Assembly (NCBI RefSeq): GCF_016127315.1
Contig: NZ_CP065997.1
Coordinates: forward strand, 6,882,001 to 6,946,000
Source: Achromobacter deleyi
GTDB lineage: Bacteria > Pseudomonadota > Gammaproteobacteria > Burkholderiales > Burkholderiaceae_B
Length of the DNA stretch: 64,000 nt
Direction: 5' to 3'
This document shows, piece after piece, positions 16,202 through 18,903 of this stretch (positions are counted from its first letter, which is position 1; every line of letters starts with the position of its first letter). The position numbers and the translations under genes were made by a program. A model generated the notes under the pieces. That model searched no databases. It saw only the letters and a list, made by a program, of their open reading frames with translations, and was not told the DNA's origin.

Positions 16202-17992
16202 TCAGATGGCCGCGGTGCGACGCTCCAGCCAGTCCAGGGCCTCGCCTTCCACCAGCGGCGAGAGGCGCTTGAGCACCGTCTCGTGGTAGTCGTTGAGCCA
16301 CGCGATTTCGTCGGCGCGCAGCAGCGACGGTTCGATGCAGCGCGTGTCGATCGGGCACAGCGTCAGCGTCTCGAAGCACAGGAACTCGCCCAGCTCGGAC
16401 GTCAGCCAGGCGCGGTTGGCCACCAGGTTCTCGATGCGCACGCCCCAGCGGCCCGGGCGGTAGATGCCCGGTTCGTTGGAGGTGATCATGCCCGGCTCCA
16501 TGGCCGTGTGCGGGCCGGGGGCCGCGCGGTAGGAGATGACCTGCGGGCCTTCGTGCACGTTCAGGAAATAACCCACGCCGTGGCCGGTGCCGTGGCCGTA
16601 TTCGGCGCCGCCTTCCCAGATCGGGGCGCGCGCGATGGCGTCCAGCATCGGCGACGGCGTGCCACGCGGGAACGAGGCGCGCGATAGCGCGATCATGCCC
16701 TTGAGCACCAGCGTGAAGTCGACCTTCTGGTCGGCGCTGGGCGTGCCCACCGCGACCACGCGGGTGATGTCGGTGGTGCCGCCCAGGTACTGGCCGCCGG
16801 AGTCGATCAGCAGCAGGCCGTCGCCCTCGATGGTGGCGTGCGATTCGGCCGTGGCGCGGTAGTGCGGCATGGCGCCGTTGGCGTTGAAGCCGGCGATGGT
16901 AGCGAAGCTGGGGCAGACGTATTCCGGGCGGCGGGCGCGGGCGGCGGTGATCTGCTCGTCGATGGTCAGCTCGGTGATGCGCTCGTTGCCCAGCGCGGCT
17001 TCGAACCAGGCGAAGAACTCGCACAGGGCGGCACCATCCTGCGCCATGGCGTGGCGCACATTGGCCAGCTCGGCGTCGGTCTTGCGCGACTTGATCAGGG
17101 TGGACGGGTTGATGGCTTCGACGCGCGGCACCGCCGGATCCATCGCGTGGAACACGCCGCAGGTGACGCGGGCCGGGTCGATCAGCAGTTTCTGGTCCCG
17201 TTCCAGCGAGGCCAGCGCATCGGCGGCCTGGGCGTAGTCGGCCACCTCGACGCCGTCGGCGGCCAGCGTGGCGCGCAGGGCGGCGTCGATCTTGCCGTCG
17301 GCCACGAACAGCGTGGCGTGGTCCGGACCGATCAGCGCGTGGCCGACGAACACCGGGTTGTAGTCGACGTCGGCGCCGCGCAGGTTGAAGAGCCAGGCGA
17401 TGTCGTCGAGGGTGCTGACGAAATGCACGTCGGCGCCATGGGCGCGCATGGCGGCGCGCACCTTGGCCAGCTTGTCGGCGCGCGCGACACAGGCCTGCGG
17501 CGCCACGTGTTCGTAGATCGCGGCCTGCGGCAGGCCGGCGCGGTCCGCCCAGATGTCGTCGAGCAGGTCGGCGCGGATTTCCAGCGCGGCGCCCGACGTG
17601 GCGGCGGCCACCGACAGCGCGCGGAACGCGGCCAGGCCCAGCACCTGCCCATCGACGCCGATGACGTCGCCGGCGCGGGTATTGGCGGCCAGCCAGTCCA
17701 CGTGGCCCGGCGTGGTGGCGACGGCGATCTTCATCAGCTGCACGCCGGTGCCGGCCAGTTGCGCCTCGGCCTGCACCCAGTAGCGGCTGTCGACCCACAG
17801 GCCGGCGAAATCGGCCGTCACGACCAGCGTGCCCACCGAGCCCGTGAAGCCCGACAGCCAGCGCCGGCCCTGCCAGCGCGCCGGCAGGTATTCGGACAGG
17901 TGCGGATCCGAGGACGGCACGATATAGGCGGACAGGCCGCGGCGGCGCATGGCCTGCCGCAGTTGGGCAATACGGGTGTCGGTGCTGGACAT
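16202..17992 (-). CDS. M24B-family Xaa-Pro aminopeptidase (long form)
   Basis: A 596 aa metallopeptidase. Two creatinase-like N-terminal domains precede a pita-bread catalytic domain that holds the metal ligands in LLIDSGGQYLGGTTDITR, GHGTGHGVGYFLNVHE, TSNEPGIY and RIENLV. The three-domain length matches the eukaryotic-type aminopeptidase P, longer than E. coli PepP (441 aa). It should cleave the bond before proline. ATG 17992 follows a GGAAA site. It lies 8 bp after the M55 peptidase stop as the last gene of the peptide-use cluster, ahead of the terminator at 16154-16187. Confidence 0.88.
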   Translation of the reverse strand: MSSTDTRIAQLRQAMRRRGLSAYIVPSSDPHLSEYLPARWQGRRWLSGFTGSVGTLVVTADFAGLWVDSRYWVQAEAQLAGTGVQLMKIAVATTPGHVDWLAANTRAGDVIGVDGQVLGLAAFRALSVAAATSGAALEIRADLLDDIWADRAGLPQAAIYEHVAPQACVARADKLAKVRAAMRAHGADVHFVSTLDDIAWLFNLRGADVDYNPVFVGHALIGPDHATLFVADGKIDAALRATLAADGVEVADYAQAADALASLERDQKLLIDPARVTCGVFHAMDPAVPRVEAINPSTLIKSRKTDAELANVRHAMAQDGAALCEFFAWFEAALGNERITELTIDEQITAARARRPEYVCPSFATIAGFNANGAMPHYRATAESHATIEGDGLLLIDSGGQYLGGTTDITRVVAVGTPSADQKVDFTLVLKGMIALSRASFPRGTPSPMLDAIARAPIWEGGAEYGHGTGHGVGYFLNVHEGPQVISYRAAPGPHTAMEPGMITSNEPGIYRPGRWGVRIENLVANRAWLTSELGEFLCFETLTLCPIDTRCIEPSLLRADEIAWLNDYHETVLKRLSPLVEGEALDWLERRTAAI

Positions 17993-18000
17993 GGGTTTCC

Positions 18001-18903
18001 TTAGCGCAACATGAAGGACATGGCGGCCAGGCTGTTCAAGGTGCGAACGGCGGCCTGCATGCTGTCCGTGGTGAACCGCAGCGTCACGCCGTCCACGCGT
18101 TCGAGCGTGGGCCACATGCAGAACAGGTCGGCGAGCGCCGCGCTCTGGGTCTGCAACCGGCATTCTATAGGGGCGGGGATGCGGAAAGGCACCGCCTTTC
18201 CACCGCTGGGCCGCCCCGAGGTGGAAACGCCCCCCTGGGGGGCAGCAAGCCCGCCTTGCGGGCGCGGCGTGGGGGTCGTTCCCTTCACGTTCCGCACCGC
18301 GGTCTCCGCGGCGGCGGCGATCGCGCGGCGCGAGGCCGCCGGCGACAGCGTCACGCCACTGCCCTGGCCGTGCGCGACCTTGGTCTGCACCCATTGCGCG
18401 CCAGGGAACAGGTCGGTGGTCTCGGCGATGAACACGTCGTCGCCGGTGGCCAGGATGACGGGCACGCCCATTTCGCCGGCCAACGCGCCGTACAGGCCGG
18501 CCTCGCCCAATTCCATGCCGTTGATGAAGACGCGCGAGAAGGCGAAGCTGTTGATGGTGTGCGCGAGGATGCCGCGGCCCTGCGAGCGCGAGTGGTAGCC
18601 GATCATGAAGACGGCGTCGCAGCCCTCTTCCAGGCCGCCCATCATGCCCAGGTAGCGCGGCTTGCCCAGCACCAGGCGGGCGCGTTCGTCGATGCCGTCC
18701 GGCAGCAGGTTGCGAAAGCCGCCGTGCGAATCGTTGACCAGGATCTCTTCGGCGCCGCCGGCGATGGCGCCCTGCACGGCGGCGTTGGCCTCGGCCGTCA
18801 TCCAGGCGCGGGCGCGCTCGTATTCGCCGTTGCCGGCTCGCACTTGTTCTGCGTGGAAGACGCCGGCGACGCCTTCGATATCGGTGGAAATCAGGATCTT
18901 CAT
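18001..18903 (-). CDS. dppA: DppA-like M55 D-aminopeptidase carrying an in-frame palindromic insertion
   Basis: A 300 aa zinc peptidase of the M55 family, which releases D-amino acids from D-amino-acid-rich peptides and forms decamers in Bacillus DppA. Ligands match closely: Asp8 and Glu10 in STDIEGVAGV, His60 in NDSHGG, His103 in GYHSRS, His114, and Glu133. About residues 206-240 form an extra Gly/Pro/Ser-rich stretch encoded by a palindromic repeat (18183-18278) set between the conserved AVRN and IPAPIECRLQ segments. The reading frame is intact. It lies 20 bp after the DmpA-type gene and 8 bp before the M24 gene, in the same operon. Confidence 0.88.
   Translation of the reverse strand: MKILISTDIEGVAGVFHAEQVRAGNGEYERARAWMTAEANAAVQGAIAGGAEEILVNDSHGGFRNLLPDGIDERARLVLGKPRYLGMMGGLEEGCDAVFMIGYHSRSQGRGILAHTINSFAFSRVFINGMELGEAGLYGALAGEMGVPVILATGDDVFIAETTDLFPGAQWVQTKVAHGQGSGVTLSPAASRRAIAAAAETAVRNVKGTTPTPRPQGGLAAPQGGVSTSGRPSGGKAVPFRIPAPIECRLQTQSAALADLFCMWPTLERVDGVTLRFTTDSMQAAVRTLNSLAAMSFMLR
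18183..18278. repeat. Palindromic repeat element inserted in frame within the M55 peptidase gene
   Basis: A cluster of three hairpins: GGAAAGGC/GCCTTTCC at 18183-18201, CCCCC/GGGGG near 18231-18242, and GCCCGC/GCGGGC at 18249-18263, ending in a run of G at about 18271-18275. The base pattern resembles GC-rich dispersed intergenic repeats common in beta-proteobacteria. Here it sits inside a coding region and is read through as roughly 32 codons of Gly/Pro/Ser. Confidence 0.75.

Follow-up and report, generated by a model that had tools for sequence, protein, structure and literature searches.

Rickettsia are AT-rich, obligately intracellular alphaproteobacteria, and the Rickettsia palindromic elements (RPEs) were reportedly described by Ogata et al. 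in 2000 and 2002. The accessible text of PMC10969869 gives RPEs a length of ~150 bp and an in-frame insertion in many genes. The element analysed here resembles RPEs in its way of working, as a palindrome that lies in frame in unrelated protein genes (five here) and yields a similar peptide each time; unlike RPEs, it is ~80 bp long, GC-rich, built of three hairpins, betaproteobacterial and often placed behind stop codons. GTAG and CGTC REPs, among which RPE-4 and RPE-6 are counted, lie mostly behind genes with some inside ORFs, and no transposase is known for CGTC REPs, according to the accessible text of PMC3733652, which names Bordetella once and Achromobacter never. The element shares with the intragenic GTAG and CGTC REPs the habit of short palindromes found mainly at gene 3′ ends and sometimes within genes, but the Achromobacter element is untagged and has three hairpins. 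Neither a GTAG nor a CGTC tag is present in the consensus of 17 copies, and the Achromobacter genome under study (G000) lacks Y1_Tnp, so we do not file the element under either class. A RAYT-driven REP or REPIN was likewise rejected, with 0 matches to Y1_Tnp (PF01797) in G000; one or two copies of this domain occur in 4 of the 19 Achromobacter genomes searched. By analogy, the element appears to work like RPEs and intragenic REPs, that is, as hairpins tolerated in loops.

Among repeats of Bordetella, Bor repeats are stem-loop repeats near coding regions (PMC1590033, accessible text), and Bor-1 is an intergenic repeat of 93-117 bp with 128-196 copies (PMC2267715, accessible text). The family described here is likewise mainly intergenic near the ends of coding sequences and is present in seven of eight named Bordetella genomes, at 1 to 40 copies (three in B. 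hinzii, 11 in B. trematum, 12 in genomosp. 1, 13 in genomosp. 13, 40 in genomosp. 4, 11 in B. petrii BT 1 9.2, one in B. pseudohinzii and none in Bordetella sp. BOR01); in contrast, in-gene copies of Bor are not mentioned in the accessible text of either paper. The published Bor repeat of Bordetella is probably the intergenic form of this element, a comparison made by description rather than by consensus. In enterobacteria, ERIC and RU elements are fused to ORFs and translated in frame, most of these fusions being in loci other than large protein families (PMC2759123, accessible text). The element here is also a small repeat translated in frame with genes, but it sits in conserved genes for which other Achromobacter species have empty alleles. 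A literature search across titles and the openings of abstracts, with figures, supplements and most subscription papers out of reach, returned no paper naming this repeat inside Achromobacter genes.

The locus lies in a window of 64,000 nucleotides (C1:6882001-6946000), the whole stretch of DNA that was analysed, within the G000 assembly of one contig of 6,987,272 bases. We consider it very probable that a dispersed hairpin repeat was inserted here in frame into an M55 peptidase gene, where it is likely tolerated as a predicted disordered, Pro/Gly/Ala-rich surface loop. The features are as follows:

18001..18903, minus strand: M55 (DppA-like) peptidase gene of 300 codons and a stop (Pfam PF04951, 310 bits)
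18283..18288, minus strand: left part of the target (GTGAAG in sense), purine-rich Lys-Lys codons, from filled versus empty allele
18199..18282, minus strand: inserted palindromic element, 84 bp, 28 residues (208-235), from DNA alignment with empty alleles
18249..18263, minus strand: hairpin 1 of the element, GCCCGC / GCGGGC, read from the sequence
18229..18243, minus strand: hairpin 2 of the element, GCCCCCC / GGGGGGC, with hardly any variation across the family
18197..18227, minus strand: hairpin 3 of the element, TTTCCACC / GGTGGAAA, with the strongest covariation
18195-18198, minus strand: right part of the target, AAGG, purine-rich Lys-Lys codons, from filled versus empty allele

The empty allele of a near relative, G040 (272 aa), reads GTG AAG AAG GCG, and G000 has 84 bp between the two AAG codons that adjoin in G040, which places the insert at 18199-18282. 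The preliminary description had proposed an in-frame palindromic repeat in the M55 gene, and such a repeat is real, as the G040 allele, 23 matches in the genome and covarying stems attest; its 96-bp interval, 18183-18278, starts 16 bp early and ends 4 bp early around a true insert of 84 bp, and its estimate of about 32 added residues falls to 28 with the empty allele as reference. The element does have three hairpins, and the GGAAAGG...CCTTTCC hairpin given at 18183-18201 in the preliminary description is mostly native (18183-18198 is native gene). A covariance model of the family matches the insert over its whole length (18197-18275; C1:6900197-6900275) at 91 bits, this copy having been among the model's 17. 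Folding of a single copy is weak evidence here: taken alone, 18183-18278 gave z = -0.84 in the mRNA sense, with 32 of 200 shuffles equally stable, and z = -2.56 on the other strand (2 of 200).

The element belongs to a family of GC-rich, three-hairpin repeats of ~75-80 bp. BLAST of 141 bp around the site against G000 found 18 places at E < 1e-3, including the site itself, with the best of the other 17 showing 85% identity over 68 bases. The covariance model was built from 17 copies, M55 copy included, which match it by construction since it was made from them; it gave 23 matches in G000 at E <= 0.01, again with the M55 copy included, and 118 in five relatives at E <= 0.001, so that the search for further copies proposed with the preliminary description found many. 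Common to the copies are CCCCCACGC, a GC hairpin that varies, GCTGCCCCCC..GGGGGC and, around CCTTGGGGCGGCCCGGC, the third hairpin. In a plain MAFFT alignment of the 17 copies, 92.6% of cells pair, and changes on both sides of a pair are seen in two of six pairs of helix 1 (90.7% of cells paired), none of six in helix 2 (99.0%) and seven of eight in helix 3. Stem covariation in the family is strong, with a score of 0.290 versus 0.112 (sd 0.012) in shuffles, none of 500 being as high, and 0.033-0.101 in slid versions. Of 17 tested copies, 10, including those of M55 and ttcA, are open in every one of the six frames; an open frame alone is thus weak evidence. Under stricter filters, 30 of the 81 taxonomic-family genomes and 20 of the 43 genera carry the repeat; Pandoraea terrae gave one weak match to the repeat model, and the genomes of Cupriavidus pinatubonensis, Paraburkholderia kururiensis and Zwartia panacis gave none. 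A known RNA family was rejected, none of six loci reaching a gathering score in Rfam 15, and blastn at E 1e-3 gave no match in the plasmid and phage collections searched.

The genomic placement of copies was surveyed without frame bias because a first peptide search had been confined to one frame; that search covered 40 regions around long open frames, carries no information on frame bias and yielded candidates of which most long open frames did not look coding. Survey input comprised the 118 copies of the five relatives (E <= 0.001) and the 23 of G000 (E <= 0.01); flanks were re-mapped and tandem or neighbouring copies merged, and L191 and L193 (G000) and L431 were dropped as weak or without a match at the stricter limit, giving 100 blocks in six Achromobacter genomes. 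Ninety-one of these lie outside genes, which bears out the earlier view of a repeat of intergenic type, and nine lie inside, all nine in the sense orientation; by flank similarity, the 100 blocks amount to 52 loci, five of them inside genes. In-gene calls used a codon model trained on 40 ORFs of the window, by which eight of the nine in-gene blocks were flagged as coding and open on both sides; in the ninth, in ttcA, the N-terminal flank is too short and scores as non-coding, and the in-gene call rests on homology. No block among the 100 split a gene out of frame in the codon-model test. In six other genera, 60 blocks offered no clear in-gene case, with codon models made from little sequence and noisy calls.

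Outside genes, an upstream gene was called for 89 blocks; 72 of them are in its sense, and 51 of these 72 start 14 nt or less from its stop or overlap it, the stop codon lying inside the element in five. Counted at one block per cluster, 34 of 47 are sense and 23 of the 34 lie within 14 nt of the stop; G000 alone has 16 blocks, two inside genes, with 12 of the other 14 sense and 8 of the 12 within 14 nt. At the other end of the element, a single convergent gene of 54 stops within 14 nt (0 of 29 at one per cluster). From near-stop starts at one end, set against hardly any convergent stops at the other, it follows that the element is polar, and its CCCCCACG end tends to follow stop codons.

An L-PSP (RidA-like) gene ends eight codons inside the repeat in four genomes, where the repeat provides the last residues and the stop (L376:808-886, L405:229-303, L411:744-821 and L417:735-810; PF01042 in the one of the four that was scanned). 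At four intergenic loci of G000 (L177, L181, L188 and L190), a GC stem with a T run lies a few bases 3′ of the repeat and looks terminator-like by eye; because this resembles an intrinsic terminator just downstream, the repeat at these loci is probably within the transcript, ahead of the terminator.

The five host genes encode the M55 peptidase, TtcA, a VTT membrane protein, an MFS transporter and a gatA-like amidase, and all copies in them are sense and open. Across 43 Achromobacter genomes, the M55 gene was found and read in 41, with the full-length insert in five; the two genomes without an M55 match, G027 and G033, are 78% and 57% complete. The ttcA host (NCBIfam TtcA equivalog, 469 bits) was found in 42 of 43 genomes and read in 39, those unread (G007, G024 and G032) having no match that runs through the insert of the query; four genomes carry the insert, as a single copy in G000, as a full and a half copy in G026 and G030, and as a half copy in G028. 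In G026 and G030 (L243 and L241), the full and half repeats stand in tandem within the N-terminal coding part of ttcA, and each keeps the frame. The VTT-domain protein (PF09335), which presumably resembles YqaA, was found in all 43 genomes and read in 35, with a full insert in three (G006, G012 and G013) and shorter forms in G029, G031 and probably G030; the genomes in which it was unread, G002, G004, G021, G022, G023, G032, G038 and G041, likewise have no match running through the query's insert. The MFS gene (PF07690), in which we place the insert in a central loop on our own reading, was found in 41 of 43 genomes, with 30 loci fetched and 27 read, and is filled in G006, G007, G011, G018 and G025. 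The amidase (PF01425), whose best NCBIfam match is gatA at 186 bits against a cut-off of 481 (204 residues scanned), was found in 42 of 43, with 30 loci fetched and 28 read, and has the insert in five, in a longer form in G011 and G029 and a shorter one in G008, G010 and G018. Shorter in-frame forms are known for four of the five in-gene loci.

The frame APTPR..LAAPQGG..LGRPGG is kept throughout in M55, TtcA and the VTT protein, in its first part only in the MFS transporter and in its last part only in the amidase. Shared orientation (five of five) and a mostly shared frame are not accounted for by general frame openness. The MFS inserts (L433-L437) have in common an unusual frame change and 3′ end, and at least four of the five genomes carrying them are not one clade, G007 being absent from the tree described below; allele exchange between species is one explanation for the common form.

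Purine runs of 8-11 are present in the nearest empty allele at four of the five sites, as Lys/Glu codon runs (M55, GAAGAAGG; MFS, GAGAAGAAGG; ttcA, GGAAGAAAAAG; VTT gene, GGAAGGAAAAG), and the amidase site has no purine run of 8; the empty alleles were chosen by eye, and the alignment around the sites is partly ambiguous. Over 47,568 coding bases of the window, 0.50% of junctions fall in purine runs of at least 8. Pyrimidine runs take up 0.54% of coding bases and are as common as purine runs, and since both are equally common in genes, neither tract supply nor a target rule can alone explain the missing antisense copies. Composition at -8 to -3 upstream of the element was taken from 58 of the 60 blocks of other genera (L549 and L506 left aside) and from 32 hand-picked blocks of the 91 outside genes in Achromobacter, with some upstream tracts being the end of a preceding, degenerate copy; it is 60-76% A and 0-9% C in the six other genera and C-free with 31-69% A in Achromobacter. 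These patterns give a strong hint that the element may prefer purine-rich tracts as targets.

Both the PF04951 profile and aligned metal-site residues are present in the 300-aa M55 product. The sole relative of solved structure found is Bacillus subtilis DppA, 1hi9 (sequence E 4.9e-31; Foldseek E 6.7e-19); the match to the NCBIfam DppA equivalog model is below its cut-off (163.5 versus 430 bits). Residues aligned to D8, E10, H60, H104 and E134, which we take to be the metal ligands of DppA, are invariant across 32 aligned M55 sequences, in agreement with the intact ligands reported before. The insert occupies a segment of variable length in the M55 alignment, in which 27 of 31 homologues are shorter by 11 to 30 residues. 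An AlphaFold2 model from the 32 sequences (mean pLDDT 78, pTM 0.81) has pLDDT < 50 at residues 210-234, a stretch flanked by a helix up to 207 and a strand from 246, and thus predicts a disordered, flexible surface loop; the flexible loop suggested in the preliminary description stands as a prediction. Three distant M55 homologues (P0105, P0106 and L097) have loops of intermediate length and unrelated sequence at the same place, which argues that the site is permissive by nature. When 80 named M55 loci and their surroundings were searched with the covariance model, only four Achromobacter records had the full repeat in M55, so the same loop in distant homologues, named with the preliminary description as a result that would speak against it, was not seen. 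A pseudogene was ruled out: the core outside the insert is under strong purifying selection, with omega of 0.022-0.087 between insert-bearing species.

Across the 41 genomes read, M55 products measure 272 (8 genomes), 273 (1), 274 (13), 277 (6), 281 (6), 284 (1), 286 (1), 300 (4) and 302 (1) residues. On a quick tree of 39 genomes from the M55, ttcA and VTT cores, with insert columns excluded, the full insert marks the clade G000/G009/G011/G020 (SH-aLRT 95) and, separately, G022, so that full versus not full requires at least two changes, or at least five if genes of 281 aa or more are grouped with the full ones. The insert of G022 lies at the same place and adds 30 residues relative to its sister G002, or 28 relative to the 274-residue forms elsewhere; this could reflect frequent loss of one old insertion, repeated insertion at the site or an exchange of alleles. 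An insert common to four species, present again in distant G022 and in shorter forms elsewhere does not fit the 'recent' event first envisaged.

Between the four clade species, core dS is 0.075-0.199 (~0.20), and the 96-nt stretch around the insert shows 0-2 differences. A purely neutral passenger of that age would be expected to differ more, and any account must therefore include constraint or a recent exchange of alleles; recent exchange and constraint on the hairpin could both explain the near invariance. The third stem reads TTTCCACC/GGTGGAAA in G000, TTTCTGCC/GGCAGAAA in G022 and TTTCTGTC/GACAGAAA in G015, its arms changing in matched pairs, and the changes between these three insert types bring amino-acid changes with them. 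Pairing that persists despite amino-acid changes argues that nucleic acid, or different source copies, rather than the peptide shaped the insert; judged from these sequences, it seems to be the hairpin that is kept, and not the peptide.

Our preferred reading, a dispersed repeat tolerated in a permissive loop, would involve a non-autonomous mobile or selfish hairpin with a preference for purine-rich (A-rich) tracts, which it would meet either just after stop codons or in Lys/Glu codon runs inside genes; this preference would partly set both reading frame and loop location. Shorter forms would then arise by in-frame deletion, and filled and empty alleles may pass between species by recombination. 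Against this reading stand the amidase site with no clear purine run, a frame that is constant in only three of the five genes (the MFS transporter shifts in the second half, the amidase in the first) and a search for a mobilising enzyme that found none, with no Y1_Tnp (PF01797) in G000. A bolder form, which we regard as unlikely, has a mobile hairpin with no known transposase recognise purine (A-rich) tracts of transcribed strands in a strand-specific way, such that target choice would tend to fix orientation, frame and surface-loop position; the whole genus would then gain loops of 25-28 residues in conserved proteins with no selection acting in their favour.

A separate feature lies downstream of the insert:

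18151..18171, minus strand: conserved codon block CCT ATA GAA TGC CGG TTG CAG, 27 nt 3′ of the insert

Six of its seven codons are identical in 41 of 41 Achromobacter genes, and CGG in 40 of 41; ATA is a rare codon in GC-rich genomes. In further loci, ATA GAA TGC is kept in 17 from Bordetella and Achromobacter and changed in one Cupriavidus and one Zwartia. The codons of the block may overlap a signal that serves the following gene. The block enters the argument for a nucleic-acid role of the hairpins, exerted through the mRNA or DNA of this gene cluster (on polarity, on the stability of the message or on an internal start of the following gene), in the way that the family may work behind genes. 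The frequent placement of sense copies within 14 nt after stop codons, the covariation of the stems and the six codons fixed in all 41 genes 27 nt downstream would suit such a role; however, no promoter-like (sigma-70-like) or terminator-like site was found in 17900-18400, the mRNA-strand fold is no better than shuffles (z = -0.84) and close relatives manage without the insert, so we rate a nucleic-acid role at this locus as distinctly improbable.

Domestication, as put forward in the preliminary description, would mean that the insert is now useful to the peptidase, for example as a loop that alters how oligomers pack or how the active site is reached, and we think it very unlikely. The insert is intact in all four members of the clade, and its near identity among these four species (0-2 differences in 96 nt despite a core dS of 0.075-0.20) is the sole result that could favour a use. 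However, it is shorter in other lineages (286, 284 and 281 aa, or 14, 12 and 9 above 272) and missing in the close relative G040, is predicted to be disordered, has its like in peptides of unrelated proteins and varies in matched pairs of its stem arms at a cost in amino acids (G000-, G022- and G015-type inserts). With the element also in four other unrelated genes, domestication is undemonstrated, and a tolerated passenger is the more likely of the two. Hardly credible is a variable low-complexity loop grown by slippage and repeat-like by mere resemblance: within the genus the site does vary in length (products of 272 to 302 aa), and loops of unrelated sequence occupy it in distant homologues, but 17 other BLAST places in G000 at E < 1e-3 (the best 85% over 68 bases) and the whole-length covariance-model match (91 bits; a copy among the model's 17) led us to reject slippage for full-length inserts; it may apply to the 277- and 281-aa genes, 5 and 9 residues above 272.

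Rickettsia and the tagged REPs provide the best-known repeats that enter coding genes in frame, and the repeat described here adds another family, in betaproteobacteria. Two of its five hosts are tRNA-related (ttcA and the gatA-like amidase), so that proteins that should stay functional carry the peptide. Since each site can be compared as filled, empty or shorter alleles in some forty sequenced species of one genus, insertion, spread and erosion can be traced. The purine-tract rule, together with the place of the element behind stop codons, offers a testable idea of how such elements may find their targets and how insertions of this kind may be survived.
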